From contig JAGYXB010001352.1 in the NCBI GenBank assembly GCA_022495005.1, positions 1,116,001 to 1,180,000 of the forward strand: DNA of 64,000 bases, given 5' to 3'. Position 1 is the stretch's first letter, and each line of letters starts with the position of its first letter. Shown here one piece after another: positions 685 through 56,340 of this stretch. This DNA comes from Rhyacophila brunnea (Eukaryota; Arthropoda; Insecta; Trichoptera; Rhyacophilidae). The notes beneath the pieces are model-generated. The model searched no databases. It saw only the letters and a list, made by a program, of their open reading frames with translations, and had not been told where the DNA came from. The position numbers and the translations under genes are program-made.

Positions 685-1126
685 GTATCACCTTTCGTTT
701 AACTAACTATTAATAAGTATAGATCAATACTCCATGTGCGTATTTTATTAGTCAACATGTGCAAGGCCGACTATATTCAGACCATGGCACTGAATTGCGA
801 ATTACGGCGGTAGTGGTATTTTTTGATTATCTTATAATGCAATGCAATGTTTGCAATAAATAAATGAAGGAACCTTGTTGGAAATAGCTCGCTTAACCAT
901 ATGCGAATCATATCCGATGTGGTATATCAATGGTACCAATATGTAAATATATTATATCATACATAATATTTTTTTGTAATTAAATTAGTTTTTATATGTC
1001 CAAGATAAACAATAAAAATAATCCTTTAATATCGACTATTCTCTACTGACATAATATATAAAACCATGTCTTTTATTCAACAAATAATTCAATATTCATT
1101 ACGTAATGAATTTTCAAAAAAAAAAA
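685..1126. other. AT-rich interval, nothing recognised
   Basis: No open frame, tRNA-like sequence or recognised repeat. Confidence 0.5.
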
Positions 1127-1505
1127 ATTCTAGTGGGTATATGAGATGTTTTAAAATGATGTATGTTCAATATATGGAATGTTACATTCTTAAATCTTGT
1201 AAATTATTCGTTGATTAAAAGAAATTGTTCATTCAATTATTAGCAAGTGCAAGTACGTTGTAACTAAAATTTTCCAGACATCGGTTAGTAATTACGGCAC
1301 TTAATTTAAAATAAACAAAAAACGATAGCCAACATTAACGCAATTTGATAATCATTTCATGTAAAGAATTACTAGTTAAATTCGTCGTAATTAATAGTTA
1401 AGTACATTGGCGCGAATCCAGTGGTTAGGGCGTCGTATTTTAAAAAAGGAGATAAATTTCTAGTAGGTAGTATATATTTTTTAACAAATTATGTATACAC
1501 AATAG
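1127..1505 (+). mobile_element. tRNA-headed element with direct terminal repeats (family T)
   Basis: Two related stretches bound the unit in direct orientation: one starts at TTCTAGTGGGTATATGAG (1,128) and ends in GTATGTTCAATA, the other starts at TTCTAGTAGGTAG (1,458) and ends in ATGTATACACAATA. Between them lie a leader (AATTATTAGCAAGTGCAAG; CGGTTAGTAATTACGG; ACTAGTTAAATTCGTCG) and the remains of a tRNA-like head (TTGGCGCGAATCCAGTGG at 1,407). The copy at 45,640-45,990 keeps the head in full; here it has lost its box A half. An AATAAAAG-type signal lies in the related terminal repeats. Non-coding. It may be a SINE variant, a miniature terminal-repeat element or a tandem-dimer remnant. Confidence 0.6.
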
Positions 1506-8020: not shown

Positions 8021-10239
8021 GCTGGTATTTTGAAGGAACTACTGTAACTAGAAATACAGTACTTGCCATAACTGTGTCTTAACTTAAATAAATATCAATA
8101 TAAAATGTATTTTTTATTAAACTATATTTTTATTTAATGAATAATACTCACAATTAAAAAAAATTAGCATTCTTTAATATATATAAAAATATCAACACAA
8201 ACAATACCACAGCCACAAAACGCAAATTGACATTATCAAAAAATAATTATCACTGTAGAGGTGCCGAGCATCACTCTATGCCAGCGTGTTTTCATTACTA
8301 TATTATGTCATGCCAGAAAGTAACCCCCAGGAAAGGTGTATGGAACACAGGTTTCAACAATATAACCAATAGTTTGAATTTATCCGCACTCACACACAAG
8401 AGAGAGGGATTTACTCATCCCTATGAATGCTATAGGCACGTCAATTATATATAGTTTTAGACCTGCAATGTATTCAGAACCTCATACAATGATTGAAAGA
8501 TAATAATATTGAATTCTAAAAAAATAAAAAATAGTTTTTCAGACATAAGATATGTTTAGGTTATAAGATCATTACTAAGACTATCCATTTATCAACATTA
8601 TCAAGATTCTTCCTGGTAAATGCTTTCTCAATTACCTACCGAAATATTTTCCTGAAAATTATTCGCTTGGGAACATAACGAATATTGTAAGTCTTTTAGG
8701 GATTTAAAAAAAATAAGTATCAACAATAATATTTTCAAGAATTTTACAAATCACATTTATGCAACAATACATTCTTACATATTTTTCTCGGTACAGATTA
8801 CAAGAAACGAAAATGTTAATATTGATAATAAATGTTATTCAAGAACGAATGCGTAACGTATGAACTATGGGACAATAGGTGGCGATAAGTGCCTACCGAC
8901 TACCTACATAAAGTTGAACAAGTACCTATCAATATTATAAAGTCTAAACAGTACCTATAATTTGTAGCGGATATTGACAAATCGAACAATACAATAATTG
9001 TAAATAAGAACCCACGAATATCGACTATTCTAATTCGAAAATCAAATTCAAATATGGAATCAGTACGAAATTGAAATTTCCCGCCTATTCCTTCTAATAT
9101 GCATGAAGTATGCACAATACCTATAATGAAAATGAGAATACGAAGGCAAGCACTGCCGCATCTAAGGCGGAGGAGTGGTGAGGGGAAAGGAGGGAAGAGG
9201 TTTAGTAAAGATACATCCCGTTAGTTTTACTACGCGAGCCTCGAGTTCGAATAATACGTGGGATGAATGTTTTCATTCATTTGAGGCGGGAAACTCACGA
9301 TGCGCGCCATTCTTGGTGTTCTAAATTCAATTTTGGATATTGTTATGATTTGTGTAAGTGTGCAATGACGAACTAAATAAAAAAAAATCAATATCACGAA
9401 AAAACCTAAAGAAAAGTCAACATTAATAGAAGTATGTAAGAATATCACCATATAAATATATATTTGTTTTAAATTACTAAGCCGATTCAAGAATATAAGG
9501 ATTGATCTATTGAAAATATTACCTTAGAGTATGTTGTTTCAGTATGCTATGTTAGCTTCCGCACAATTCTGTTTTATTTCATGACAATGTAGGAACCTCG
9601 CCCTTCTGCCATGGAAGATACAAATCGTCCATCAAAACACTGACATTGGTACATTTTCAATGGAGCCGGAACAAAACAAAAGAATGGTCATCCAATTGAA
9701 ACGCCAAAAATATGGACAACAATGGACAGTGAGGCTGTTACAAAATCAATGCTTTTATGAACGTGCGAAGCATACACATGTAATATGTTATCATTAGTTG
9801 ATATCATCATGTGGTTGTATGAAAATTCTAATTATTATTCAATTATTATAGTACAACTGCTAATTCTGCTGAAAAATACGCATATTGAAGAAGTACAAGA
9901 AGGACAATACGGGTGTCCTTTCTCGATGTGATCCTAAAAGAAAACAATCGAAGAACACAGTAAGTAGATCTACTATATGGAAAACCTTCTAGGACTAAAA
10001 TGTCCGTGACTGGTATTTTGAAGGTGTATGACATATACGGGTTCCGTGCAAAGTATCGAGGTCTTTGCCTGGTCGAATCCAAAAATCTGTACGTTTCACC
10101 ATCAGATGTTGTATCATAAATGGATGGCCGTATAGTATTGAGCTCAACTCGCATGTATAAATAAAATACTATACCAATTATATCGTATAATTTATATATT
10201 TTTTTATAATTTATATCGTATATTCAATCAATTATCATA
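8021..10239. other. AT-rich interval without supported gene
   Basis: Holds a purine-rich GC patch near 9,145-9,200 and a 102-codon minus-strand frame at 9,846-10,154 with no recognised domain. No repeat partner was seen. Confidence 0.4.
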
Positions 10240-12436
10240 ATTTTTCCAATAGTCGTCTTAGCGATAGCAATAATTTCAATTCTGTTGGCTCGGAAACTTT
10301 CTTTTTTAATAAATGGAATTTCTTCAAAGGTGACCTATTACAAATGTATTATGAAATGCAGAGTATTGATTGGAATGCTTTATATAGTACCGATGATATT
10401 AATAGTGCAATTGATGTTTTCTATGTAAATATTTATAGTGTATTTTCCAAGTCTTTTCCCATTAAGAAGTCTTCAGGTACTTCGCGCAGCTACCCTAAAT
10501 GGTTCACTCATAGCATTATTAAATCCATTGACTTAAAAGCCATCTGTCATAAACGATGGAAGCGCTCGAAGTGCCTGAATGATTATGGTGCTTTCTCCGA
10601 TATGCGCAGAAGAGTTCATCGCGCCATTGACGCTGCTCACAAAGCGTACATTGAGAAAATTTCCTTGAATTTAACCTCAGACCCGAAAACTTTTTAGACG
10701 TATGTTAGGAGCTTACGTAACTCTTCTGCACAGCTATCGTCTATGTCTTTTAGGGGTAGTGTATTGAATGGCTATAAATCCATCGCTGATGGTTTTGCTG
10801 AATATTTTAGGTCAGTTTATTCCACGATTCCACCAAAACTTCAACCTCAACCTGAATACTTTTCGTCTTCTTGGCCCATACTAAATATTGGTCCTCTTGA
10901 TGAGTCAGATATGAAATATGCTTTTTCTAGACTATATCCGAAATCCTCAGTAGGTCCAGATGGCATTCCTCCATGGCTATTAAAAGGATGCAAAAAACTT
11001 TTAAGCGATCCTTTGTTGTATATTTTCAATCTATGTTTAAGTAAATCTACCTTCCCTGAATGTTGGAGCTTAACTCGTATACGACCGGTGTATAAAATGG
11101 CTCGGTATCTGAAATAACTAACTTCCGACCAGTGGCTGTTCTCTCTGCACCGGTCAAACTATTTGAGTCCATTTTACATAAATATATAAATAAACATGTG
11201 GATGGTCAGTTGACTGACGCTCAACATGGTTTTCGATCTACTCGATCAACAGTTACCAACCTCATGGAGTACACTGAATACATATCTCGTTCACTAGACA
11301 ATCATTGTCAAGTTGATGCAATTTATACGGATATGTCAAAGGCTTTCGATCGAGTTGATCATGATATTCTTTAACTAAACTGAGTGCAGTAGGCGGATCT
11401 ATTAATTTTGTAAATTTTTTCAAATCTTATTTTTCGCATCGTTGTCAATATGTCGAGTACGCTGGGTGTGCATCTGAAGTCTTTCAAACTCTTTCAGGTG
11501 TTCCCCAAGGATCAAATCTTGGACCAATTATGTTCCTCATATTTATCAATGATATAGTTAAAGCCATGGATGGAGTAGAATTTTTACTTTTTGCGGATGA
11601 TTTGAAATTATATGCACCAATTCGGAATGAGTTGGACTGTTGCATGTTACAGAGAAATCTCTGTTCAATTGAAAGTTGGTCAAAAAAGAATAAATTAGAA
11701 TTTAATACTGACAAATGCTTTTGTATTACTTTTCTAGGTCAAGAACTCCGATTAAATACAATTATATTATGTCAAAAAATTCTTTAAAACATCAATCTGA
11801 GGCGAAAGATCTTGGGATAATTTTTGATTCTTCATTATCCTTTCACTCGCATATAACTTCCACGGCTCTACGTGCGAGTAAGCTTCTAGGATTCATCATG
11901 CGACAATCCAAACCATTCAAGAATCCTAATGTATTACGTACACTCTACGTCTCATTAGTGCGTAGCATCCTTGAATATGGGTCGATTATCTGGTGTCCTT
12001 ATGAGGTTTCCTGTAAGCTTATTTTAGAACGCGTCCAGAAGAAATTTCTTCGATGTCTTTATTTTAAAACATTTAACTATTTTCCTTTCGATAATTCGTC
12101 AGATGGTTATTTTCCAACTACCTTCTACAAGGCATGCTTACTTTTCACTCTCTTGACTCTCGTCGGTCTCTTCTGCTGTTGAAACACTTTTGCCTGTTAT
12201 CGCGAGGGATGGTTTCCAATCCCGGTGTCCTAATGAATTTGAATTTCCATGCGCCTGTCAATTACCTACGTGGTCGCAGTCATGATTTATTCTGGATTGG
12301 AACCGTTTCCTCGTGTCAAGCCCATCAGGCACGATTAGCGAGGGGTGCAAGACTAGTAAATGCGCTCCCTAAAGACATAGACATTTTCAATGATGTACTT
12401 TGCATTTTATTTTTGAAACTGTATTTTTCTGTATAA
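10240..12436 (+). pseudogene. LINE ORF2 reverse transcriptase, multiply broken
   Basis: The product would copy element RNA at nicked target DNA. Motifs in order are SSVGPDGIPPWLLK (about 10,950-10,990), NFRPVAVLSAPVKLFES, DAQHGFRSTRST and DMSKAFDRVDHD, then SGVPQGSNLGPIMF, the catalytic FADD box at 11,590-11,601, and the C-terminal RVQKKFLRCLYF. At least five lesions break it: a TAG at 10,695-10,697 and frame changes near 11,100, 11,372, 11,725 and 12,130. Each frame picks up where the last stops, so the parent gene is clear. The upstream part remains readable (NKWNFFKGDLLQ, 10,302-10,343). Jockey clade is the best fit; R1 or LOA relatives are possible. Confidence 0.88.
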
Positions 12437-17758: not shown

Positions 17759-20326
17759 CTACTAACACCAACTGCTTGTGACGTAGGTATAAGATTGGAA
17801 AAATATCCGTTTTCGGTTATAAAACTCGATATCGTTCATTCCTCCCAAATGAAGAATGTATAAGATCCAGTATCCTCCTGCTTGCCTAATAAGTATGTAT
17901 CCTGACACAGCCCCCATCGTCTTCTACAAAAACATACCACCCATTTTCTATCACAATTGCTTCGTATTTGTTCGTTAACAGATGGCGGTTTGTTAGTATA
18001 TACTTTAATATCATCATGACTGATTAAATTAATTGGACAGCAGGAAAATCTGGAGTTGGGATCTCATTTCAATGGGGATGTGTGGTGAATCATAAGTCAT
18101 AACAGATAATTTTATATAAGTAGATAAGAACTCTAACATTACAACAAAAAGAAATCAAACTGTTTTTTTAAACCTAGTAGTATGGGTAAATAAATATCTC
18201 CCCTAGCGTACGAATAGTAAAATTTATGCCGTTAACATTTTTTTTTATTTTACTTCCGGGCGAGAGAGCTCTACCAGTAATATTTCGTAAGTAGGTGGCT
18301 AACTAAAAAAGTTCAGGCAGATAGCCGTGTGACTCGCCACTGTGCGATCGGGAAGGTGCCTGTTGGATAAATAAATCACAATCGTGATTCCGGAAACTCC
18401 CCATGTGTGGTTTTGGAGAAAAACTTTAAGAACCGATCATGAAACCATTATACAAGATAATATGGTGAACAAAGACATAAATGTCATTGATGGTGAACAA
18501 GTAAGTAAAAATAAATGGCAAAGCGTAGGAAAACTGCATAGACCTGAATTCCATAATATTCACGTATTGATGATTATTTTGAATTTTCGTGAAGGAAAAT
18601 GGAAATAGTCCGATGTCCTAAGTCGTCCTAGTATCATAGGGTGACATGGCTGCTTGGAGGAAAGCGTCTATTAGATAAAGAGAGAGGCCTATATCGAACA
18701 AAGCATGGATCAATTGAAACATTTATAAATCAAAATAAAGAGTTTTTCTAGAAATGTATTGTTACTTTTGTACAGTATTCACGCAAAATTGAACAATTGT
18801 TATCAAAGACAACTGTACAAAAGTCGTAAATAATGATGAAAAACAGACGATAATCAATTATCAAATTCGAACTTATCATTGAATAAACTGAATCCATCTC
18901 AATTCGAATCATAAATAACCGTTACAGACTCCATACATAAAACGATTACTGGTGGCCCAGAAAAGGTTCAAATTATGACCAATAAATTATCAAAAATCTA
19001 TTCGACACCAATCGCTAATAATACAATATTGTACACCTCTTTAATTCGCCGTATAAATCATGTAGGTAAACGTAGAGAGATCTAACTGAATAAAATAACT
19101 GTATATGATTGATGAAAACATATTATAAATATTTATTAATATTAAATTCGGTCATAATAATTTAATTACATTAGGACGTATACTAATAAGATAATCATTT
19201 ATTAGTCGTATGAGACGAGCAACCTGAAGTGTGTTCGTTAACAGATAATTGAAATATACACGAACAGCAGAACACATACAATTTCTTATATTTACGAGTA
19301 GGTAATAATTGACAAACAACTTACCTTTTCTATATATAGTTATTTAATATAAAAACAGTACATAGTCTTGATTTTAAAATATTTATATACAGGTTATTAA
19401 GTATAAAAAATCGTATATTATGCGCTTCTACGGGTGCATGATTCAATCACCTAAGTTTTCACGACATTCAAACTAGTATAAGATTGACTAAAAAATAATT
19501 AGTTAAATTAGTATAAATCTTCGATATAAATTGTCACGACAACCCAATAGAAACTCGTTCAAACGAATTTTCGTATGCCATGGGGTTGTGTGTTTGTGTT
19601 CGGATATGTGATCGCAGCGGTCAATTATGCGCACGGAAAATTACGAACGAAGTCACACGTATATAGCAAATTCATTGAATTAGGGAAAACTATGTGCAAG
19701 TAAAACTTATTATACACTCCTTTAATCGTTAACGATCAAATTTTCTAGCGATCGCTTGATCTTGCGAGTAATTTGTGCGCGGTGATCAATTCTCTGCAAA
19801 TCGTCGAGGTAGAAAACCTATTTGGGGAGCTGAGGGCCAGCTACAGCCAATTGTACAAAATAGTAGTTATTATCTTTACTTATTGATGTTATCAATGTCT
19901 TTCTTACTTTTTTTTTAAATAAATTAACTTGCAGAAATTTTGTGCAGATACATTTTAAGTGGTAAATTTCTTTAATCGTGTATATTTTAATTATTCCCAG
20001 TGGAAATAAATTATACCAATTAAATGAAACAAAATAGATCCTTAAGGACGCGGTTGAACTCATTTTCCGTAAAACGTTCTTGAATATTTGTTAACATGAA
20101 TATAAACGTCTCACTTTTGATTATAGTAGAGAAGCCCTAAATCGATATCTCAAAAAAGCTTTAAAAAATTGACAATGTGAGATATATGTAACTATCACGT
20201 ATGTAGCCATCCACATTTGCATCAACGTGCTTTACGAAATGCTTCAACAAAAGCAATATTATTTATGAAAAACATTTAATTTCTATCAAGAATAATATCT
20301 CCATCAAGCTTTTGGATTGTAATATT
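17759..20326. other. Mostly AT-rich interval with one hairpin
   Basis: Holds a 13-bp perfect inverted repeat at 18,764-18,824 and a 74-codon frame at 18,384-18,608 without known domain. GC-richer patches near 18,255-18,370 and 19,560-19,800 show no clear gene structure. Confidence 0.4.
18764..18824. repeat. 13-bp inverted repeat, 35-nt loop
   Basis: ACTTTTGTACAGT at 18,764-18,776 is exactly complementary to ACTGTACAAAAGT at 18,812-18,824. Function unknown; it may be the remnant of a small inverted-repeat element. Confidence 0.7.
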
Positions 20327-20641
20327 ATTGAACATTATATAATTTAGAAAAACACTAACTGAGAGAGTATATCACAACCAATAGAAAAACTTCTTTGAAA
20401 AAAGTAAGCCAACTGGTCGGGAATCGAACCCGGCATCTCCAACGTGTAAACGCCCCAAACTCGTCGCATTCAGCCATTATGCTACGGAAGATGCGACGTC
20501 TAGGAATTTTTCCAATATTTTTTAAGCAACTTCTTGTACTTGCTAATAATTTTTAATTAACTATTTCTTTTATTCAAACGAATAATTCACAAGATTTAAG
20601 AATATATCATTCTGATTATTGAACATTATATAATTTAGAAA
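20327..20641 (-). mobile_element. tRNA-headed element with direct terminal repeats (family T)
   Basis: A 24-bp direct repeat (ATTGAACATTATATAATTTA plus GAAA) bounds the unit at 20,327-20,350 and 20,618-20,641. On the minus strand it reads: terminal repeat with ATTCGTTTGAATAAAAGAAA, leader with AATTATTAGCAAGTACAAG, tRNA-like head with box A TAGCATAATGGC and box B GGTTCGATTCC, then a body with CTTACTTTTTTCAAAGAAG and ATACTCTCTCAGTTAG. The head could drive pol III transcription. It abuts an inverted sister copy at 20,642. Confidence 0.7.
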
Positions 20642-21022
20642 GTCTAGACGTCGGTTAGTAATCGTTGTAATAGTAAAATAACTACCTACTTTGATTTAAT
20701 AAACAAAAATCTATTGCCGAAGTAACATGATTTCGAAGAGCGCTGAGTGGTAGGTATTTAATAGCCAATAGCTTAAATATTTGTCGTCATTAGTATGTCT
20801 TCCGTAGCATAATGGCTGAATGCGACGAGTTTGGGGCGTTTACCCGTTGGAGATGCCGGGCTCGATTCCCGACCGGTTGGCTTACTTTTTTCAAAGAAGT
20901 TTTTTCTATTGGTTGTGATATACTCTCTCAGTTAGTGTTTTTCTAAATAATATAATGTTCAATAATCAGAATGATATATTCTTAAATCTTGTGAATTATT
21001 CGTTTGAATAAAAGAAATAGTT
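20642..21022 (+). mobile_element. tRNA-headed element (family T), inverted partner
   Basis: Plus-strand copy joined head-to-head to the previous one. The leader GTCTAGACGTCGGTTAGTAA is followed by the head at 20,797-20,885 (TAGCATAATGGC, box B GGCTCGATTCC) and by body and terminal repeat to TTTGAATAAAAGAAATAG at 21,022. Body and tail mirror the minus copy almost base for base, so the two could pair as a long stem. Its leader differs from the partner's but matches the copy at 1,127-1,505 (CGGTTAGTAAT), so the pair is not a simple local inversion. Confidence 0.7.
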
Positions 21023-21234
21023 AATGTAATATTATTGTTGTGTTGTTATTTCTGAGACATAAATTACAAATGGATACCTATAAAAACCTGAAAATATCAT
21101 AAATAATATGATTATATTAGTAGTAGATACTTAACTCGGATTAAAATAGGGTTGACAATAAAATTAATTTTTTGTAAAATGTAAAAAATAGAAATGAAAG
21201 TGTATTTAAAAAAAAACGGTACAACTCGTTTTAA

Positions 21235-21371: not shown

Positions 21372-21725
21372 TTAAACCAGTAAAAACCATAAAAACTTCA
21401 TTCAGGCTTGCAGAACTTGTAGCTAACTTAATCAGTAGACTAGTGGTCCTTTATTTAGCTTCATTTCCACACATTTATGCTCCATCTCTATGTAAGAAGG
21501 TTTTCTTTAAAATCATCGGTTTATAACGTACTTGTACTTGCTAATAATTTAACATTCTCAAATCTTTCAAAGGTATTCACACGAAATATAATTGGCTCAA
21601 TAATTTATCTAACTAGAGTTAACGGCCCACGTAAGCCAGTCAGGAAACACTGAGTTTATTAGAGTTAAACTATAATCTTGGACTTTGAATCGTTGGGAAT
21701 TAACACTTTGCCTATTATTTGTTAT

Positions 21726-22972
21726 TTTAAACATTTAATGACTGCATTAAAGTATTTTTTTTTTACATAAAATAGTACTTTAACCTTTCCGTTTCCATCA
21801 GCAGCCTTATCGAGAACAGATTTCAGTATAGGTGAAAAGTGTTGATTTTTGTGTTTATTAATTCTTAAATGTTATTTATGAAATCATTAGTAGTACTTAT
21901 TACGAGATAATTTTAAAATATTCACGATAAAAAATTATATTGATAATCTCTGTGATCCGAAATTTGACAAGAATTAGGCATTTTATTATTCAAAAAATCG
22001 GCAAGATTAACACATTTGAAGATGATTCTAAAGATATTATTATAAGCTATGTCTTTGACCATTCAAGTGTGATAAACATCTTATGAATAATGATTGCTTT
22101 ATAATAATTATTGACTAAGAATAAGGTAGTGTTTTTTTGAAATACGCCATTTCTTTTGTCATTCCCCAGTGGTTAAGCTACAACATACGGCCGTAGCCAT
22201 AAATTGACAAACTATAATTGAAGTAGGGAGTAAAATGATATTGACGCCGTGTTTGAACATGTACCGTTTAAAAAAAATTAAAAAAAATTCGGTTAGGTAC
22301 ATGTTCAAACACGCGCGTTAACATAATTTTACTCCCTACTTTAATTACAGTTTGTCAATTTATGGCTACGGCCGTATGTTGTAGCTTAACCACTAGGGAA
22401 TGACAAAAGAAATGGCGTATTTCAAAAAAACACTACCTTATTCTTAGGTCAATAATTATTATAAAGCAATCATTATTCTAGATGTTTATCACACTTGAAT
22501 GGTCAAAGACATAGCTTATAATTAGTATCTTTAGAATTATCTTCAAATGTGTTAATCTTGCCATTTTTTGAATAATAAAATGCCTAATTCTTGTCAAATT
22601 TGGGATCACAGAGATTATCAATATATTTTTTATCGTGAATATTTTACAAAAATTATCTCGAATAAATTATACTAATGGTTTTATAAATGCGTTTAAAAAT
22701 TAATAAACGTAAAAAATCTTAACACCACTGCACAGTTATGTACCGAAATATGACTATATTCTAAAACATTAGAGCGAGAGGTTTAAAAGAATACTATTTT
22801 ATGTAACAAAAATACTTTATGCAGTCATCAAATTTAAAATAACTATAAAGGATAATAAGGCTTCAAAATTATATAAATAGATTATCTACAACGTTTAAGG
22901 AGTGTCCAGGATCATGGTTTGAAAATACAATAAAAACTCAATTTTGACCTTCGACGAGCATCTCCCCCCTTA
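21726..22972. mobile_element. Long palindrome (foldback element), TTAA at the right border
   Basis: Two arms of about 550 bp mirror each other around 22,280, separated by a short A-rich centre. Landmarks found in both arms are GGCAAGATTAACACATTTGA, CATACGGCCGTAGCC and CACGCGCGTTAACAT. The right arm continues about 130 bp past the left and ends in TCCCCCC at a TTAA (22,969-22,972), the end also seen in the half-copy at 42,266. Arms differ by scattered substitutions, and the outer left part (21,760-21,900) is more diverged. No protein-coding frame. Best read as a TTAA-type foldback element whose inverted repeats make up nearly its whole length. Confidence 0.8.
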
Positions 22973-23804: not shown

Positions 23805-24060
23805 TAGCCATCTTTAAGTAGAATTGAATTCATTTTCAGTTAATTCTGTTTTGTATGAAAAGTCATTTCGACACCATTATTGGTTGCTAGGGGTCTGGGG
23901 TCCTAGCAACAAAAATATTAATATATACGTGCGTTACTATGGGAATCAATATGATATGTCAAGTACAAATTTTTTTGATCGTTTAAGCTAGTCAAGTCAA
24001 GTTTATATGGTTCAACAGAATTTAAAAACGTTGTGTATAAAAAGTTCTTTTTATATTGTA
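23805..24060 (+). repeat. Dispersed repeat R, with internal stem-loop
   Basis: Shared with 31,693-31,945 at high similarity (TTCGACACCATTATTGG, ATATACGTGCGTTACTATGG, TTTTTTTGATCGTTTAAGC), and its last third with 42,963-43,070. It contains GTTGCTAGG...CCTAGCAAC, a short stem-loop kept in both long copies. The 31-kb copy lacks about 27 bp near the 3' end. No coding frame; the GTCAAGTTTATATGGTTCAA region resembles a LINE 3' UTR, but the parent is not in the window. Confidence 0.7.
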
Positions 24061-24070
24061 ATTATTTTTA

Positions 24071-24290
24071 CTATGTCTGATCCTAATATGATCTTATGGG
24101 CCTCCACACAATGGAGGTTGTATTAACAAATTTTTCTTTTTACGATAAATGTATGTTAGCCACTTGCTCAACCTATTACGTCCATACTCTAGGCACAAAA
24201 TGAAAAATGTGTATTTGCCAAACCCTGGATTCGAACCTGGGCCCCAGTACATTATAAGCCGACGCGTAAGCCGCCCAGCCACCGTGGGCA
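24071..24290 (-). mobile_element. SINE A, tRNA-derived, full-length copy
   Basis: On the minus strand a tRNA-like head starts at 24,289 (CCCACGGTGGCTGGGCGGCT) and contains box B AGGTTCGAATCC. GTGGCYGNGCGGCTTAAGCG is typical of serine/leucine (class II) tRNAs. A conserved body follows (GAGCAAGTGGCTAAC), then a small hairpin CCTCCA...TGGAGG and the terminus GATCAGACATAG. Five copies lie in the window: here, 45,402, 52,734, 55,131 and 56,229. Mobilisation would need a partner LINE, not identified. Confidence 0.85.
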
Positions 24291-24328
24291 ATATATTTAT
24301 TTCATAAAGGTATATTTATATATATAAT

Positions 24329-31945: not shown

Positions 31946-34900
31946 AGTACCTATAACTTTTTTTTTTAAAACTTTTATGAAAAAACGTCATATGAGGTAC
32001 CTACACATTTATGTTTTCGAGATACTTAAGATTTGTAACTGATTTAACACGTGACATAGGCCTACTTATCAAGTTCAAATCCTAAAAAAGGAAGTTTCCT
32101 TAATTCCGTGATTGGTATCGTGAATTCCAATCTCAAAATCTTGGGATAAAAAATTCTATCCCGGATTACAATCCTTACTACCGACTTTATAGTAATGAAA
32201 TGAAATATTTTAAACAAAGTTTGAAAACGTACTGAAAAGTTAATTAATCAACTACACATTTTTTTGTTCATTTATGATTAATAATGAAATTATAATGACG
32301 TTATCAGTTATTCTCAAAGTAGGGGAAGTCCTTACAAAGGAGACGAAATGGGAAAGGTCACCGTCCAGAGAAGATGCCTTTTAATTTCGTTAGCTGAATA
32401 AGTAAACCGGGCAGAGGCAGAGGGCGCTGGTTTGTTATAAAATTGCACCACTCCGTGAACTCTCTCGCAAGTGTGGGGGTGCTTGAAGAACAGACGTTAA
32501 GAACCATTAAGTAATGAAAATCTTAAAAAAGTGCGGTTATTAATTTGGACAAGAAAACTTGCCGAGAATATTGGGCAAATAAATTATGTCAACCACAACG
32601 CTTCGGTTATGTAAACAGCAGTTTAAATAACTACTAAATTAAACGAAATATAAACTGAAAAAAATAGCAAATATTCGGCGTATATTGACTGCCAGTCTTT
32701 GTTAGTACATTAATTACCACATTTAAATAGCATGTTAATTATATCGAATGTCGACCCAATCGTTACGCGCTAGGTGCGTTTTTAGTCCAATGTATTAATT
32801 AAAATTAAATCTGTGGTTTAATAAAAAATATTCTATTAGGTGGGTACCTATTTGGTGGTTAGATGTAAATTGTATACGCAGTTCACCGTATAGGTACATT
32901 ATCGCCGTGAGCTTTTGTCTTAGTAAAAGATGGCTGTATACCTAATAGTATTTGAGACTAAATTCTGCGATGTACGAGGAGCATTTGACTGAATGGTCAT
33001 TTAGTACACACGTGTATTTTTTTTTAGATAGGAAATTTGACATTAATATATTATTAACTACTTATAAGTAATTCGGAATTCTTCCGGTACATACTTACAT
33101 TTTCATTTTACTATATATAGGTGTATGATTATGACGTGGCATTCCTTCGGTACATACATCCTAGTTTATTCTAGTGCTGTGTTTTAAATTGTAATATGTC
33201 TGAATAAGCTATTATACAATTATGGTACATACAATATTAGTATTCACAATTCTGTGGGAAAATTCAGCTCTATATTAGCTGTATATTCTTATTATTTTAT
33301 ATTAAGCCCTTTCTCAACATTCAAATAATAATATTACGTAGGTATTTAAATTGATTTATGATAAATTTCCAGGACATGTTTTTATGACATAAGACGATAC
33401 GTAAAAAATAGCATCATTCTATGAATATATACACAGCAATATTAAAATTTTAGTTTCATCAAAATATGACATAACAATGTATTATTCCGTAATCATAGCA
33501 TCGTGTCATTCACTGAATTGTTATGAGCAGTTATTAATTCTTTTTTACTAATTAAAACCTGGCCAGGTGATCGTTTATCGCGTTAAACGTGTAAGAAAAG
33601 ATATTACATAAAAGCAGACGCAACGATAAAGCTTTGAAACTTTACCTTTTTAAAAAAAAATACAAATTGTGACGTAAAAATGTTAGGCGCCCATGCCACG
33701 TGATGACCCCAGCGCGGTAGTCGTCCGTCGGCACGTGTCGCCCGAAAGCTCTTGTACGTTACTTTTAATGGGAAGCTTTTCATAACGCCGCCGACTGCGC
33801 GCGACCGGACCCGAAAGGACACGACCGTGCGCCTGCAGTGTTATAAAATGATAATCCTGGAACCCGACAAATTAAATGACACGGGTTTTATTATAAGTGG
33901 CCTTATCCCGAATTTCATAAGCGTAACTCATTCACTTAGAATAATGAATAGGTAACGAAAATTTTTCAAGTTAAGGGGATTCGTAAAAGGTGTTTATTTA
34001 TATATTTTTTTTGCTAAAAAAAAATAACTTAACCTATAAATTAATTATATTCGACATAATATCAATTGTTTTAAATAATCTAATAAAATAAATATGAATA
34101 ACATTTTGAATAGGAAATTCGGAGGATCGCAGCAGTTAAAAATGTTAATTCATCCGCTCCATGCTCCGATTAAAACGTTCAAGTCGAATTACCAATGTAG
34201 AAAAAAATGCATGAAATAAACAGCTAAGTAATTTATTTAAAATATCAATCATCCGTCATAATTGATTATACTTAATAAAGAATAATATAATTGTAGAAAG
34301 TAAATCATATTTTATTATTTGCCTTTATATCGTTTAAATTTAATTATAGAACAGAAAATAGACGAAAATTTGTAGCAGTAAAAAATGTGTGTCTTGAGAA
34401 CTCCAGACGAAGCCCCATTGCTGCTTTGCTCTACTGTTTTCCTTCAACGCTCTGGGGAAAACTCGTACTTATTGATAAACTATTTTTTTTTTTTCAATGA
34501 ATAATTTCAAAGATTAAGATTCAAAAACTTTTATTGAACATACATAATTTGAGTCCTGGAACTCCTGGGTGTCATATTTTTTCAATTTTTTTCCCCCAAT
34601 AGTTACATATTTCTCAGTAGTGTTTTCAAATTATGTACGCTTATTAATATTTTTCTGTTTTTATTCCATTTTAGTTCTGTACCTAAAAGTCAAAATGTCT
34701 TAAGTCAGATTTTGCTGAAAATTATTTCGTTGGTACCTAAATTCATTCTAAGCCAATTCACATGTGAGTACATAATATATTCATAACAGAAACCTGGACA
34801 TTCAAAAACTATATACTCGTACTCTATTAATATTAAGGGTATGCAATATCTTAAATCGCGGTTTTCTATTTTTTTTTACTTGAGATACATTGTCTCTCGG

Positions 34901-36619: not shown

Positions 36620-36860
36620 TAAGATTTTTTTTATTATAGAAATACTTTACATATTTTTCAAAAACTTTACTAGAAAAAAAAATTGGATCGAGTGGGGCTA
36701 GAATTCACGTCTTTCGTTTTCCGGATGAGTGCTTTCGCATCTAAGCTATCGATCCGTCTGTGATGCATGCGAATGATTTCTTATAACTACGTTTTATCTT
36801 CTGAAAACATCGACTTCAAGTTATATATAGGCGATAATAATTTTTAAATGATTATCGTCA
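36620..36860 (-). mobile_element. tRNA-headed repeat, probable family T member
   Basis: The minus-strand head at 36,755-36,685 has a perfect 7-bp acceptor-like stem (GGATCGA with TCGATCC), a box A TAGCTTAGATGC, and a T-arm whose right half CCCAC pairs only partly with GTGAA. The anticodon arm does not fold, so it is not a working tRNA gene. The body continues with TTTCTAGTAAAG and AAAATATGTAAAG, resembling the terminal repeat of the 1,127-1,505 element. Confidence 0.5.
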
Positions 36861-42260: not shown

Positions 42261-42265
42261 ACTTA

Positions 42266-42960
42266 AGGGGGGACATGCTCAGCGTAGGTCAACATGGAGC
42301 TTTTGTTCTATTTTCAAAGCATGATCCTGGACATACCTTAAACGTTGTAGATAATCTATTTATAATTTTGAAGCCTTATTATCCTTCATATTTATTTTAA
42401 ACATTTGATGACTGCATAAAGTATTTTTATTACATAAAATAGTATTCTTTTAAACCTCTCGCTCTAATGTTTTAGAATATAGTCATATTTCAGTACATAA
42501 ATGTGCAGTGGTGTTAAGATTTTTTACATTTATTAATTTTTAAACGCATTTATAAAACCATCAGTATAATTTATATCGACATTATTATAGTGAAATATTT
42601 ACGATAAAAAATTATATTGATAATCTCCGTGATCCCAAATTTGACAAGAATTAGGCATTTTATTATTCAAAAAATGGGCAAGATTAACACATTTGAAGAT
42701 AATTCTAAAGATACTCATTATAAGCTATGTCTTTGACCATTCAATTGTGATAAATATCCTACGAATAATGATTGCTTTATAATAATTATTGACCTAAGAA
42801 TAAGGTAGTGTTTTTTTTTAAATACGCCATTTCTTTTGGCATTCCCCAGTGGTTAAGCTATAACATACGGCCGTAGCCATAAATTGACAAACTATGATTG
42901 AAGTAGAAGTAAAATGATGTTAACGCGCGTGTTTGAACATGTACCGTTTAAAAAAATCGG
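42266..42960. mobile_element. Half-copy of the 22-kb palindrome (single arm)
   Basis: It begins at a TTAA (42,263-42,266) followed by GGGGGGACATGC and runs co-linear with one full arm of the palindrome through CATACGGCCGTAGCC to GAACATGTACCGTTTAAAAA, where the palindrome's centre lies. It then stops and is joined to repeat R. The outer 130 bp show what the left arm at 21,726 has lost. Non-coding. Confidence 0.82.
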
Positions 42961-44190: not shown

Positions 44191-45401
44191 AGTATATTTT
44201 ATTTCATAATAATCTGCAGTACAAGCACATTTTCTGCAGTTAACTCCCTTAACTGCTACGTGTTTTGTTCTTATTAAAATAAGGCATGTTAATTCTGAGG
44301 TTTCTTCAATTAATTACATTTTTAAACCTTACACTGACGGTCTGACTAAGCTATGCGGTGTAATATTATAAAATATAAATGAACAGTAGACATAAAAAAA
44401 AATGCTAAAATAGTTACGATGGAGGGTTAAACGGCGATATGATACCTTTTTGCTTAGAAATTACATGCCATAGTGGCGAATTCAAGTGAAAAATATTTGT
44501 ATAAAATAAGAATTAAGCACTGTAATAAAGAGAGATAGAGTAATATTGTATTATTAAAATTGTTATTGATTCTAGAACCATTTCAGTATTAATTATTGAG
44601 TAATAATTATTATGGAGGATAATAAAATATATTCTTTGTCAATCAGTTTGCTGTTGACACAAAGGTTGGTTGTATAATTACGTACCTACTGTAGTTTGCG
44701 ATTTTACATCATTTTTAATATACATTTCTGATAATAATGATTCATTATTATACAACAGCTTCTTAATGACATTGTAATAGAATAATATACGCCGTTTTTA
44801 TCTCAGTCCTTACAGCGATGATAAACAAATCTCAGAGTACAGTATAAGCATGAAAAATGCAACAAATCAATCTGCATTTCCTTGTCTTGTAATTTACAAA
44901 ATAATAATAGAAATTATATAAAATTCTACAGGATAAAGGAATTGGTACCATTTGTTAAGGTTCTCGTTTATATAATATTACAAATCTATATCAAAGGGAA
45001 ATTTTCTTGAATATCTTATAGCTCATAATATATTACAAAATACGATATTTCAATGCATAAGTTAAAAAAAAAATTGCGTGTAACATTTTTATCGTAGAAA
45101 AAAACTTAATTAAGATTGTTAGAGTATGAGCATAGATTATAAAGCCATCAGACCATTTTGATATTGACACTACATAAGATAATAATTAATTGGCAATGGC
45201 CCGATTTTTCTAGTGATTGTTTTTAATTCCAAGGAAACGCTTGTTTAGTAAAAATAATTAAACTATGTTTCCTGTTATTATAAATTATTGTAGGTTTTCC
45301 GCCGTTATTATAAGATTTTAAATTATTTGATTCGGTAAATATTATAAAAGTACTTTAGATATTTCTCAAGTTTGTATTAATTAAGACTTATACATATCTT
45401 A
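44191..45401. other. AT-rich interval, nothing recognised
   Basis: No frame above 60 codons and no repeat partner seen. Confidence 0.5.
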
Positions 45402-45612
45402 CCCATGATGGCCGCAGGGCTTAAGCGTCGGCCTATAGCGTCGTGGGTCCCAGTTTCGAATCCTGGGTCTGGCAAGTGTACACATATTGTTTTTCAATTT
45501 ATCAATGAGTCAGAGTATGAACTCAAGTGGCTTACACCCATTTATCGTAAAAAACAAAATCTGTTAATATAAACCTCCATATTATAATCTTATTATGATC
45601 GGACATGATCGA
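45402..45612 (+). mobile_element. SINE A copy
   Basis: The head CCCATGATGGCCGCAGGGCT with GCTTAAGCGTCGGCCTATAG is followed by box B AGTTTCGAATCC. The body TATTGTTTTTCAATTTATC and AAGTGGCTTAC leads to the terminus GATCGGACATGATCG. The 3' hairpin (CCTCCATATTA) has lost its second half. A family T element begins about 28 bp downstream. Confidence 0.82.
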
Positions 45613-45639
45613 AAAAAAAATACTTATCTGTAGATAATA

Positions 45640-45990
45640 AATATTGACCATACATAATTTGAAAACATCTCACACCCACTACAAAAAAGCTTTAAAAAAT
45701 ACGGCACTCGACTTGAACTTCTAACCACTGGATTCGCGCCAGTGTGCTTTTCCAATTAAGCTAAGGGCGTCTTAATTAATTACGAAGAATTTAACTAGTA
45801 GTTCTTATATGAATTTCATATCAAATTGCGTTAATAATGTTATCGGTTTTTGTAAATTGAATCAAGGTAGGTATCAATTAAATACCATATATAACTAACC
45901 GACATCACGGATCACTCTAAATACGTACTTTCACTTGCTAATAATTTAATAAACAATTTCTTTTATTCAACAAATACTGCAAGTGTATAT
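45640..45990 (-). mobile_element. tRNA-headed element (family T)
   Basis: On the minus strand: a partial terminal repeat (TTGTTGAATAAAAGAAATTG), leader (AATTATTAGCAAGTGAAAG; ACTAGTTAAATTCTTCG), a tRNA-like head at 45,772-45,702, and the 3' terminal repeat (TAGTGGGTGTGAGATG). The head has box A TTAGCTTAATTGG and a perfect 5-bp anticodon-like stem ACTGG/CCAGT around CGCGAAT. The T-arm is eroded and U33 is replaced by G, so it is not a functional tRNA. Confidence 0.68.
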
Positions 45991-49310: not shown

Positions 49311-50058
49311 TAGGGAATCCAATCCCGAGCCAAAATTCTGATCCCGGGATTTCGGGATTACAATTTGACAATCCCGGGATCCCGGGACTGGTCCCGGGAT
49401 TGGGATTTTTTCCATTGTTAATATAAAATTTTTATATTTACAAATAACATTGATAAAATCGGTCAAAAATAAATCTAGTATAATTTATACTATTTAAGAC
49501 ATTTATTGTTAATATTGTATACGTTCAATCTTGGAAATACACAAGTTTAATGGAGTAAATAATATTGTAATATAAATAATAATGTGAATTTAATATGAGA
49601 TTGCTGTTTCTGATAGTAAAGACATAATGAATGGATTAGCGAGATTTAAAATAGTAAAGCAAATAATCATGGCGTACTTATGGCCTTTCCGCTTCATAAA
49701 TCTAATTAGTCAGCCAAATATGAAACTGCCGTAAAACGTATGATATCATGGTGGAATTACTTTGTTAAAAGTGCGAAGCATTGTTTTTTTACCAATCTTT
49801 CTCATTTTTAATAATCTATGTGAAAAAATAAAATGAATCGGCAACCTACACATCAAACTTCATTCAAACTCAGTTTATTTCTAATGTAGTTATTTTGTAT
49901 TAAAAGTATTTTTTCTGTTATATTTTCCATAAAAATTGATAAAAAAATCAATCCCGAAATCCCGGGATTATGTTTATCAATCCCGGGATTCATAGGTATC
50001 GAAAATAGCTCGGGATCCCGGGATCCCGGGATTCGGGATCCCGGGATTGGATTCCCTA
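49311..50058. mobile_element. hAT-type element with CCCGGG-packed ends
   Basis: The inverted ends are TAGGGAATCCAATCCCGAGC and, reverse complemented, TAGGGAATCCAATCCCGGGA. The perfect duplication CGTGTGAC flanks them (49,303-49,310; 50,059-50,066). Roughly the first 90 and last 120 bp hold about ten copies of CCCGGGAT, which can pair within and between ends and likely serve as transposase sites. The AT-rich middle has no coding frame. Related ends bound 16,648-17,750. Confidence 0.88.
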
Positions 50059-50069
50059 CGTGTGACTAC

Positions 50070-50190
50070 ATGTTACATACACATAATTTATTTTTTCACA
50101 CAAAAAAACACACTCGATTGGATTCGAACCGACGATTGCTCGGTTATCAGCCGAGCGCACAACCATTACGCCACAGAATGATACTACAAT
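50070..50190 (-). mobile_element. tRNA-like sequence, probable family T member
   Basis: Minus strand at 50,182-50,111: box A GTGGCGTAATGG, a perfect 5-bp anticodon stem CTCGG/CCGAG with 7-nt loop CTGATAA (anticodon GAT, U33 present), and box B CGGTTCGAATCC. The acceptor ends do not pair and the T-stem is imperfect, so a working tRNA gene is unlikely. The 3' sequence TAAATTATGTGTATGTAACA resembles the family T terminal repeat. Confidence 0.5.
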
Positions 50191-52627: not shown

Positions 52628-52733
52628 GTGCTATATTTTAACAGCACCTCTCTTGGCTGTGATAAAATTTAGAGCGAGATAGCCGGTTTTGCCTGTTTAG
52701 ACGGCTAACTTATTGTAACATTTATAATTATTC

Positions 52734-52965
52734 GACCATGTCCGATCCTAATAGGATCGTATGGGCATCCACAGAGTAGAGGTTTGTATTAACAGATGTT
52801 GTTTTTTACGAGAAATAGATGTCAGCCACTTGTTCAACCTATTAGGTCCATACCCTGACTCACACACAAATTGAAAAACAATATGTGTACTTGCCAGGCC
52901 CAGGATTCGAACTTGAGACCCACGGCGTGATAGTCCAACGCTTAAGCCGCGCGGCCACCGTGGGT
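52734..52965 (-). mobile_element. SINE A copy, near full length
   Basis: Head CCCACGGTGGCCGCGCGGCT with GCTTAAGCGTTGGACTATCA and box B AAGTTCGAATCC; body GAACAAGTGGCTGAC. The terminal hairpin is imperfect (CCTCTA/TGGATG) and the terminus is GATCGGACATGGTCGAA. The head closely follows the serine tRNA pattern (GTGGCCGAGCGGTTAAGGCG) with the variable arm partly kept. Confidence 0.87.
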
Positions 52966-53904
52966 ACCTCAATACAAATATGTAATAAATACTATCACTT
53001 TATCACTTTAGCGGTCGATATTCGCCTCGTGTATAGAATAGACCCGCTCTGTTTCAGTTTAGCAATTTCATCCTCGTTTAAACCAGTAATATTCAGAGGA
53101 AATAATATTACGAAAAACAACGCCAACTTCGATTAGAAAATTTGCCACAAAAAGAAGAATAAAGGTCCACAAATAACTATTTTGATCACGACCAATGTTT
53201 TACTATGTACTAGTAACTAGTAGAATAAAAAAATCATCTAGTTTGATCAGTTATACATAACGTATCTTGAAAATTTCAAAAAGCGAAAACTGGGATTCGA
53301 AAGAAGATCATCATTTATGGAAGTGTGCAGTTTTAAATGCCTAGTTGTATTATTTATTTTTATACGCACATAATAATAACGAAAATAAGTACATGTGTTA
53401 AAAAATTTCCTTCTCAATTATTAATGTACTTACACATTTGATAACATTAGATTCATAAATAGTTGTGTTACTTTGTAAACATCTTGACTTTGACATTAAT
53501 AAAGTTAATATAATGCGATTAAATAAAATAATGACGTAAATGTGCTAAAAAAGCTCTCGGTGTGCCATTTGAAATAAAGTATCTTCGCTAAATGCAATAA
53601 TACGAGAAACTTTCCCATACCGAGCAGAAGTAAGTTGCATGCAACTAGCTAACTACTTTCACGACACATTCTGTCTGTGGGACAAATATTTCGAACGATA
53701 TTTCAGTTATTGGCAACCATTTGATGCCAATACCTAAACCTTCATTAATAAAAATGTATAACATACTATTCCGCTCGCAGGCGAACTTATGTTACATAAA
53801 TTCTTAAAATTTGTAGAGTATATTGAAAACATTTTTTGATTTTTGTATCATTGACAATGGTTCTTTTTATTGACATATTGTTAACGTTTTCAAATTCTAG
53901 AATA
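52966..53904. other. AT-rich interval, nothing recognised
   Basis: An 83-codon frame ending at 53,136 overlaps the SINE and is not supported. Confidence 0.45.
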
Positions 53905-54125
53905 TTAAATATTAATTGAATGAAATTCAACATACAGAATTTTGAAAACACAGAAAATATATTATAACCAATAGAAAAAATCTTTTTGAAAAAAGTAAGA
54001 CACCACCCAGGAATCGAACCTGCATCTATTGGGTTTCGCGCCCACGCACATAGATCACTATGCAAAAGGTACCATACTTAATTACAACAAATTTTAACTA
54101 ATGACTCTTATAATACTCAGATAAT
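53905..54125 (-). mobile_element. tRNA-headed element (family T)
   Basis: The minus-strand leader (CATTAGTTAAAATTTGTTG) is followed by the head at 54,066-54,000 with GTGGGCGCGAAACCCAA in the anticodon position and box B AGGTTCGATTCC. The body CTTACTTTTTTCAAAAAG, then TTTCTATTGGTTATAATA, matches the 20-kb pair. The tail TTTTCAAAATTCTGTATGTT resembles the terminal repeat. The anticodon loop CGCGAA is shared with the 45-kb copy though the heads differ otherwise. Confidence 0.65.
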
Positions 54126-54129
54126 CTTT

Positions 54130-55057
54130 TCAAATCAAATTTATTTATTTTACATATAATGAACATAACAAATTATAAATTCAAAGCGTTCACGACATGA
54201 CATAAAATAAGTGTTAATAATTAAAAAAAAATAAAAATACAGAGAAAAAGTAATAAAATAAGAAAATAAATTAAATAAGTAACAAAATAAAAGTAGATGG
54301 AAGCACACAGAGTGAACTTTGATAAACCCTATCTTAAAAACTTATAAAACAACGTCCACCTAAATTCACCCTCACGTAAGTGGAATATATCAATATCCGA
54401 AGCGATTTCATTAAGCATGGTTACTGCCCTCCCAATTGGCATTACTAATGGCAGGTTAGTTCTGCACCGTGGGAGAACAAACAACGCATGCCCTCGATTC
54501 CTAAGGTAATTATCAGAGACACACAAGCCAATACCACCAAGAATGGCAGAGTTCACATTTACGCCGCGTATAAGTCTGAAAAAATATGTAGCTAAATAAA
54601 GATCCCTTCTAAATTTTAAGCTACAGTATGTAAGCATCCCTAAGAGAAAATCAGTCGGATAGAGCCACGGATAATATCCATACAACCGAAAGTAAAGGAG
54701 TCGTAAAAATTTCTTTTGGACTCTCTCCACCATAAGGCCGTACTTCAACTGATGCGGGGCCCAAACGATAGACCCACTCTCAAGTCTGCTTCTAACTAAG
54801 GAGTTATAGAGAATTTTTAGTACCGTAACATCCGAAAAGACCCGGGAAGTACGCAAGACAAAGCCCAACATCTTTAGCGCCTTTTTACAAATGGTATCTA
54901 TATGACCACTAAACGTCAGTTTACCGTCAAATGTAATTCCAAGATCTCTTACAGATGCTATTCGCGAGAGAACTCTGCCATGCATCGAGTACTGGAAAAA
55001 CAATACTCGTGAGGCTTTAGTAAACGATAAAACATTGCATTTATCAATATTGAAGTC
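54130..55057 (-). mobile_element. 5'-truncated Jockey-like LINE, antisense
   Basis: Runs from 55,057, inside the reverse transcriptase C-terminal part, through the end of the coding frame (stop at 54,329) and an AT-rich 3' UTR to the tail TAAATAAATTTGATTTGA at about 54,130. The same tail is at 24,329-24,381. Related to, but not the same family as, the 10-kb LINE. Confidence 0.85.
54329..55057 (-). pseudogene. LINE reverse transcriptase C-terminal part, frame intact
   Basis: An open frame of 242 codons begins DFNIDKCNVLSFTK and includes SVRDLGITFDGKLTFSGHI, LYNSLVRSRLESGSIVW, RVQKKFLRLLYFRLYGY, FFRLIRGVNVNS and the final DIDIFHLREGEFRW. This is the thumb and C-terminal region of a Jockey-clade ORF2 protein. 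The catalytic FADD and everything upstream are missing by truncation, so there is no activity. Absence of stops over 700 bp makes it the youngest-looking coding piece in the window. Confidence 0.88.
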
Positions 55058-55130: not shown

Positions 55131-55325
55131 TAACCGTGGGTCCCAGGTTCAAATCTTGGGTTTGGCTAATACACATTATTGTTTTTCAATATGTATTTGG
55201 AGTCAGAGTATGGAACTGAGTAAGTGGTTTACATCCGTTTCTCGTAAAAAGAAAAATCTGTCAATCCAAACATCCACTCTGTGGAGGCCCAGATGATCTT
55301 CTGAGGATAGGACATGGTCAGAAAT
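55131..55325 (+). mobile_element. SINE A copy, head truncated
   Basis: Starts within the head at AACCGTGGGTCCCAGGTTCA (box B retained, box A lost) and continues through GAGTAAGTGGTTTACATC. The hairpin is CCACTCTGTGG and the terminus GATAGGACATGGTCAG. A (TA)n run follows at 55,324-55,343. It lies close to the 5' border of the antisense LINE. Confidence 0.8.
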
Positions 55326-56228
55326 ATATATATATATATATTTCTAGAAAAACTTTAGGATGCTTCGAAAGCTATTTCAGTTTTTGCACCATTATCAAAG
55401 ATATTGTATTCTCGATTGATAGTTGTACATATAACCGGAATAGCTATCAGAACACACGGCTATAAAAATTCACAATAATTGACAAATCCGGTGAAACAAT
55501 AATTATTTTTCCATCAAGAATCTAAACAGATAATCAATTATTAACGTGAGCGGTATAATTTGTTCACATAGATATGAAAATTTTGAGAGATGAAGACACT
55601 CATTTTGGTTTTTTTAAATAATGCAGGAATGATTTGATTATAAGTTATTTTTTTCAACACGTCATAATGATAGCAGCAACATAAAAAATAGATAAATGAA
55701 ATCATAATATTGCTATTTGCCACTGATGCTTATCAATAATACGAGAATGTTTATGACAGTTCTGTAGAATGCAAAATTAGCCATAACATCCGTATTTACC
55801 TAAACAATTTTAAAAATACAAAAGCGCATAGATGTTTTGAATAAAAAATGTTTAGTATCACTATAAAATAAATATATATGTATTATTAGTAGAAATATAC
55901 ACTCGCTGCCAACTGCATGCGTCGCACTTGGTAAACTATTTCAATTGCCTCCGACAATTAAACGCTACTTATAAATAATTGATATTACTGTTTGACTGCT
56001 ATAGACCACTTTGAGGACATTATTAATTCATCCCAGCATCAGCAATATACATATAAAACACATTATATATTATAATTTGACATTATAAATGTGTATAGAT
56101 ATGACACATAATATAATATGAATATGTATGTAACATACATTATAATATTATGTATAATTAGACACGTACGTCAGAATCATAATCGACTGAAAGTTTGAGT
56201 GATCCCACCCGATCGACAAGGGTTGGAA

Positions 56229-56340
56229 ATAATGGGTTGAGCAAGTGGCTAACATCAATTTCTCGTATCAAAACAAAAATCTGTTAATACAACCTCCACT
56301 CTATGGAGGCCCATATAATCTTCTCATGATCATGGTATAA
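56229..56340 (+). mobile_element. SINE A copy, 3' half only
   Basis: From AATGGGTTGAGCAAGTGGCT to the terminus GATCATGGTAT. The hairpin CCTCCACTCTATGGAGG is intact. No tRNA head. Confidence 0.8.

Follow-up and report, generated by a model that had tools for sequence, protein, structure and literature searches.

The window, a stretch of 64,000 nucleotides of the Rhyacophila brunnea genome, carries at 20,331-21,024 a single insertion made up of an antisense block and a sense block arranged head to head. The two blocks are together flanked by a 13-bp target duplication (20,318-20,330 and 21,025-21,037), found on following up a suggestion in an earlier note that such duplications be sought beyond the terminal repeats. 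That note had described a unit at 20,327-20,641 bounded by a 24-bp perfect direct repeat. The perfect direct repeat is present within the insertion, with a length of 27 bp rather than 24 (20,324-20,350 and 20,615-20,641), but the unit does not stop at 20,641. The tRNA-like segment proposed to lie between the two repeat copies is indeed there, with an exact box B at 20,420-20,430. Both blocks are cut from a tandem array of a 435-bp monomer. The features of the insertion are as follows, with M positions counted from the head in one genomic copy (locus L028).

20,318-20,330: left copy of the 13-bp target-site duplication, TGTAATATTATTG, of which the last 7 bases are also a match to the element end.
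20,331-20,641, minus strand: antisense monomer block; outer end at site A (about M171); about 143 bp of the monomer is missing at about 20,492.
20,324-20,350, minus strand: first copy of the 27-bp repeat, the 3' part of the repeat that resembles a pseudo-LTR (pLTR).
20,615-20,641, minus strand: second copy of the 27-bp repeat.
20,406-20,491, minus strand: tRNA-like head of the antisense block, with the exact box B and with box A at 20,474-20,484 (read from the sequence).
20,642-21,024, plus strand: sense block with leader, head, T-runs, repeat and tail; outer end at site B (about M241).
20,797-20,881, plus strand: tRNA-like head of the sense block, with box A at 20,805-20,815 and a box B-like stretch with one change at 20,859-20,869 (read from the sequence).
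20,886-20,891, plus strand: T6 run after the sense-block head (read from the sequence).
21,025-21,037: right 13-bp target-site duplication, TGTAATATTATTG.

Near this insertion, a 32-bp stretch at 21,521-21,552 has 97% identity to the consensus of subfamily A (described below) just past site B. A 1.1-kb self-palindromic repeat lies at 21,721-22,843 (84.6% identity to its own reverse complement), and has a relative 20 kb away at 42,263-42,956.

The genome assembly searched comprises 1,086,822,381 bases. In L028 two heads lie 435 bp apart, and the monomer period is 433-435 bp. The M monomer consists of the tRNA-like head (M1 to about M87), T-runs, the repeat (to about M172), a tail that contains AATAAA (to about M240) and a leader that runs to the next head. 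Two further subfamilies were characterized: A, for which the best 40 of 4,485 candidates for the query window:1127-1440 were scored and a consensus was derived from 29 loci, and C, for which the best 40 of 3,465 candidates for the copy at 53.9 kb of the window were scored and 16 pieces were read. Monomer lengths are 435 bp for M, 387 bp for the A consensus and about 407 bp for the C consensus, which was pieced together. A hairpin beside site A is fully paired in 121 of 126 pattern matches, where the pattern itself requires four of the six pairs and the 126 matches include overlapping loci. The tail pattern has no exact match in viral_contigs. Separately, a SCARNA14 match at L040:1104-1238 scores just over the gathering score (41.6 versus 40 bits).

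Boxes A and B, judged against the generally known consensus patterns, are present without mismatch in M as well as in the consensuses of A and C; each of these heads is followed by two T-runs. ARAGORN assigns the head of the A consensus to tRNA-Ser(cga), with the same assignment for C, and the A consensus folds as a cloverleaf; in an ARAGORN run on the window, none of the heads of the family was recognized. The Rfam tRNA model, applied to individual heads, matches two of 20 A loci at E <= 1 (one above the gathering score) and nine of 16 C loci (one above), and gives no match in five M loci at E <= 10. By hand pairing, seven of seven acceptor pairs form in A and in C and five of seven in M. Between M and A, the identity is 0.90 in the tail (59 positions), 0.82 in box A, 0.82 in box B, 0.81 in the T-run block, 0.50 in leader2 and 0.26 in the anticodon domain; a 14-bp leader block, at 1.00, is the sole block above the tail. 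The heads look like a single diverging lineage in which the promoter boxes may have been kept while the tRNA fold decayed, most clearly in M. The proposal that the heads are exchangeable thus finds no support, as the aligned M, A and C heads have boxes A and B and neighbouring letters in common, an argument that appears weaker for M, the anticodon domain of which is 26% identical to that of A.

Four other copies were found in the window.

1,051-1,504, plus strand: diverged subfamily A copy with an antisense tail at 1,051-1,091 (end B) and a sense block at 1,111-1,504 (end A); no clear target duplication, the best shared flank being 8 bp.
45,638-45,982, minus strand: subfamily A copy, 5'-truncated in the tail, with a site A end; a target duplication was looked for and not found.
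53,925-54,110, minus strand: subfamily C copy, 5'-truncated in the leader, with a site A end; a target duplication was looked for and not found.
34,466-34,552, minus strand: decayed repeat and tail fragment, absent from the earlier note.

The first three confirm the related units that had been reported at these places. Two more copies had been listed as probable, at 36,620-36,860 and 50,070-50,190; neither could be recovered, as there is no match there to the M or A monomer at E <= 0.01. Separate tRNA-model matches are found at 36,684-36,755 and at 50,110-50,180; the latter is tRNA-Ile-like and is adjoined at 50,011-50,048 by short CGGGATCC-type tandem repeats. Four matches to the box B pattern GGTTCRANTCC lie in the window against a mean of 0.07 in shuffled sequences, with none of 100 shuffles reaching four, and two of the four matches (20,420 and 54,010) belong to the tRNA-headed family. 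Another repeat family, which looks like an ordinary SINE, lies at 45,390-45,616, with copies near 24,056-24,300, 52,722-52,966, 55,134-55,326 and 56,219-56,332; it has a tRNA-like B box (exact at 24,227-24,237). Broken frames at 10,191-12,436 and 54,329-55,057 resemble the remains of LINE reverse transcriptases by eye; a Pfam search of the three longest open reading frames of the window found nothing.

The arrangement of the main insertion was surveyed at 40 distinct loci (41 clusters), the best 40 of 1,820 candidates of one query, a selection that favours young copies of one subfamily. Before counting, BLAST pieces with an identity under 88% and clusters shorter than 150 bp were dropped, and the overlapping loci L014-L016, L022, L024 and L026-L030 were omitted in favour of other versions of the same places. 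Outward-facing twins with both ends typed are present at 28 of the 40 loci, the remaining 12 being single blocks or having an untyped end, and no inward-facing twins were seen among the 40. Site A falls at M159-175 and site B at M228-243, about 70 bp apart. One outer end lies at A and the other at B in 26 of the 28 typed twins (25 table rows and L023, which had been split by the script and was joined by hand), the exceptions being L068 (A/A) and L078 (B/B); were the pairing a coin toss, the probability of this result would be P = 1.5e-6. The strong pairing of A with B is suggestive of reciprocal use of two RNA start sites by the two target strands. For subfamily A, paired A/B ends were inspected without tabulation. 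Inner junctions look scattered, with enrichment assessed in one window. The copies do not exceed about 2.3 kb at the 40 loci, one of which (L070) runs into the end of a contig.

A flank of at least 9 bp is common to both sides in 24 of the 41 clusters, compared with 55 of 1,640 mismatched pairs, with a mode of 12-13 bp and a range of 9-16 bp; one of the 24, that of L073, is probably element sequence, and the other 17 clusters have no shared flank of 9 bp. This count supersedes that from a smaller set of 26 loci, 15 of which had at least 9 bp in common (mismatched pairs, 20 of 650). The flanks of L010, once joined, correspond to a paralogous stretch without interruption, L013:2713-2995, in which one copy of the duplication is present, and there is a weaker case of an uninterrupted paralogous site for L005. 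The target duplications look AT-rich by appearance.

These ends and flanks bear on several conventional explanations. One of these, a tRNA-derived SINE that is mobilized by a LINE and that forms tandem dimers and, through twin priming, inverted 5' parts, would account for the tRNA-like head with boxes A and B, the shared flanks of 9-16 bp and the frames in the window that resemble LINE remains by eye (Pfam being blank in the three longest). We nevertheless consider it improbable. The outer ends are both fixed and, in 26 of 28 typed twins, are of different kinds, whereas in ordinary twin priming the position of the inverted end is internal and varies. Apart from the A-rich end that belongs to the monomer itself, none of the 15 insertions inspected carries a poly(A) or simple-repeat tail. 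Nor is the head the starting point of sense copies: the 61 sense 5' ends of M are scattered across the monomer. The original remark that this is not an ordinary SINE was well founded; the sense 5' ends of neither M nor A are concentrated at the start of the head.

One of the two readings offered in the earlier note was a miniature terminal-repeat element. The terminal repeats are not LTR-like ends; they make up the repeated portion of a tandem monomer and resemble the pLTR of a Penelope-like retrotransposon (PLE), and the true outer ends are the two sites about 70 bp apart. Terminal direct repeats combined with a tRNA-like sequence would also suit a TRIM or Helenus-type small LTR retrotransposon with a pol III module. 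Helenus carries its tRNA-like sequence in the LTRs, and the animal families make 4-bp duplications (PMC10886601), whereas here the tRNA-like part lies between the repeats, the shared flank is about 12 bp, the ends are variable and inverted blocks are the rule. The length of the duplication and the structure of the ends already contradict this explanation, which we regard as extremely doubtful. The other reading in the note, pieces of a tandem array, is right in that short tandem arrays do play a part; copies that are dispersed and flanked by duplications are not what a plain satellite would give. The head-to-tail monomers with their 433-435-bp period are what fragments of such an array would contain, but copies that are dispersed and at most about 2.3 kb long in the examined loci, with shared flanks and fixed outer ends, leave this explanation with practically no chance of being correct.

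The internal composition of the copies points to the nature of the template. The longest block holds about three monomers (1,284 bp in L022, the same place as L078). Three-SNP haplotypes are mixed in ten of the 16 multi-copy loci, which indicates the transcript of an array rather than of one circular monomer and disfavours a rolling-circle origin of the arrays. Minor alleles of the head_TR segment are more frequent in inner than in outermost monomers (8/13 versus 11/54, p=0.006), as they are at two more columns (5/13 versus 4/54, p=0.011; 7/13 versus 11/54, p=0.032); these p values are nominal and are the lowest among 22 columns over three segments. Divergence of head_TR within loci is not lower than that between loci (0.0215 versus 0.0186; 1,800 of 2,000 permutations as low), and the corresponding values are 0.0050 versus 0.0086 for tail_lead (137 of 2,000) and 0.0139 versus 0.0157 for lead2 (525 of 2,000). 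The mixed haplotypes and the excess of inner minor alleles suggest that the template may have been a heterogeneous multimeric RNA.

Heterogeneity of this kind weighs against a metazoan retrozyme, in which hammerhead-bearing tandem monomers spread via RNA circles and one circular template would be expected. The size of the monomer and the short tandem arrays fit; retrozyme monomers measure 150-450 bp and PLEs are named as a strong candidate helper (PMC7229834). However, cmscan lists no hammerhead in five M loci (E <= 10) or in 20 A and 16 C loci (E <= 1), although minimal forms could be missed as Rfam hammerheads are listed in none of the PLE pieces described below either, and there is no CTGANGA...GAAA core in the M or A monomers. 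We regard a retrozyme as a very unlikely explanation. In flanking DNA (298,462 bases scanned, overlapping loci included) two CTGATGA...CGAAAC cores occur, at L090:488-526 and L070:2796; cmscan finds no hammerhead in L090. On the grounds given for each, we rejected the LTR/TRIM, SINE, satellite and retrozyme explanations.

We consider it highly probable that the elements are non-autonomous PLEs with a tRNA-derived module in the repeating monomer. Published PLEs are described as occurring in tandem or partial-tandem copies (PMC11167929), with an adjacent inverted pLTR, an optional tail on one inverted pLTR and target duplications that are 8-10 bp in the cases shown and absent in some (PMC3846280). 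In a purified anole PLE, reverse transcription starts at two adjacent internal sites that bound the tail, and the enzyme cuts and extends both strands at AT-rich DNA with a preference for ATT (PMC11167929). The tRNA-headed elements share with PLEs the direct and inverted repeat blocks with 3' ends outward (28 of 40 loci), the optional tail on one outer end (26 of 28 typed twins) and a target duplication of about 8-13 bp (at least 9 bp common to both sides in 24 of 41 clusters).

A positive control for this anatomy is an autonomous PLE in the same genome, at C1200, which is built in the same way as the tRNA-headed elements. It has an 808-residue open reading frame with an RVT_1 match (3.1e-16) and a GIY-YIG match of 1.2e-3 that is below the curated cut-off. 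An inverted block with a tail accompanies a sense block that ends at the pLTR without a tail, and its flanks have the 12-bp ATACTGATATAA in common (read by eye from the sequence). For a PLE protein of this genome, the named relatives that match best among 120 of 250 matches listed are from Lepidoptera (Euphydryas, Parnassius and Phthorimaea), and no relatives were found in the PDB. Endonuclease-like places were scored for the best 150 of 1,017 candidates. A genome-wide Pfam search for GIY-YIG returned one gene, which we take to be the SLX1 homologue. Six PLE pieces were collected (L082, L084, L107, L108, L109 and L110); L082 and L084 are one family, L108 and L109 look alike, and the genome is suggested to hold several PLE families. 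Beside the start of the PLE reading frame in L107 there is a near-perfect hairpin of about 106 bp (L107:139-244) with Rfam miRNA matches below gathering.

The twins, the paired A/B ends, the target duplications, the apparently multimeric and heterogeneous content and an autonomous PLE of the same anatomy can be read directly from the genome. Mobilization in trans by a PLE is something that we infer from this anatomy, because no autonomous PLE sharing the repeat or the tail was found: in a non-exhaustive survey, comparison of the six PLE pieces with M, A and C gave no convincing match, the best nominal matches being short with E values of at least 0.027. In the mechanism that we propose, a multimeric array transcript would be bound by a PLE reverse transcriptase/endonuclease supplied in trans, which would make cuts staggered by about 12 nt in AT-rich target DNA. 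The free 3' ends would then each prime reverse transcription at an internal RNA site, of which there are two, separated by about 70 nt, with one target strand using site A and the other strand site B, and the two cDNAs of variable length would be joined head to head.

Any function of the head is put forward here as a possibility, whether it would recruit pol III/TFIIIC or would act as a structure or processing site and so define where the RNA begins. Because T-runs immediately follow the head, pol III transcripts would be expected to terminate short of the reverse-transcription sites, and the head is therefore probably not the driver of the template RNA; the arrangement would argue against pol III transcription of that RNA from the head. 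A tentative and rather unlikely proposal is that the tRNA-like module, as a folded structure or an RNase Z processing site, fixes the 5' terminus of the RNA that is retrotransposed and thereby limits insertions to one unit; hammerhead ribozymes are proposed to do this in retrozymes. Counting from the first base past the T-runs, 23 of 37 sense 5' ends of A lie between -25 and +15, with 3.8 expected, a count that is biased as the query began there. With a query starting elsewhere, four of six A ends lie within -30 to +15, a slightly wider window read by eye. Some A loci are tandem, for example L046. For M, which shows multimers and the head of which has lost part of the tRNA fold, nine of 61 ends lie in the post-T-run window (5.6 expected, P=0.10), and for C the figure is one of 20, which is uninformative as the pieces mostly end before that place. 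The counts of 37, 61 and 20 ends leave out pieces that are shorter than 100 bp, lie at the edge of a locus or have a same-strand piece next to them. In this small test, the pattern is consistent with a head at which, in A, reverse transcriptase halts or a cut in the RNA is marked, an effect no longer present in M.

The elements resemble PLEs such as Penelope/Poseidon and Pen_Av in their tandem and inverted blocks, their paired ends that differ by a tail and the similar size of their target duplications. They differ in that monomers of 387-435 bp are too short for a PLE protein of about 800 residues, the monomer contains a tRNA-like module with boxes A and B and T-runs, and the tail is about 70 bp compared with 30-40 in PLEs. 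With metazoan non-LTR retrozymes they share non-coding monomers of a few hundred base pairs, short tandem arrays and a proposed PLE helper, but no hammerhead was detected here and a tRNA-like module and a heterogeneous template set them apart. Helenus (TRIMp3) is likewise a non-autonomous element with a captured tRNA-like pol III promoter, but follows an LTR-type mechanism with a PBS, a PPT, duplications of 4-5 bp and the tRNA-like part in the LTR. Boxes A and B and small size are common to tRNA-derived SINEs, in contrast to which the module here is internal rather than 5' and the ends are of PLE type.

No tRNA-headed PLE was found in a literature search at the level of titles and opening abstract lines among openly accessible papers. 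If confirmed, the elements would bring together two known kinds of mobile DNA in a new way, a tRNA-like segment being combined with Penelope-type copying. Modules derived from tRNA are known in SINEs, which are LINE-driven, and in Helenus, which is LTR-driven; a PLE-type version would extend the capture of a pol III-type module to a third class of eukaryotic retroelement, and young copies such as those of subfamily M would provide a natural record of how PLEs choose their ends.
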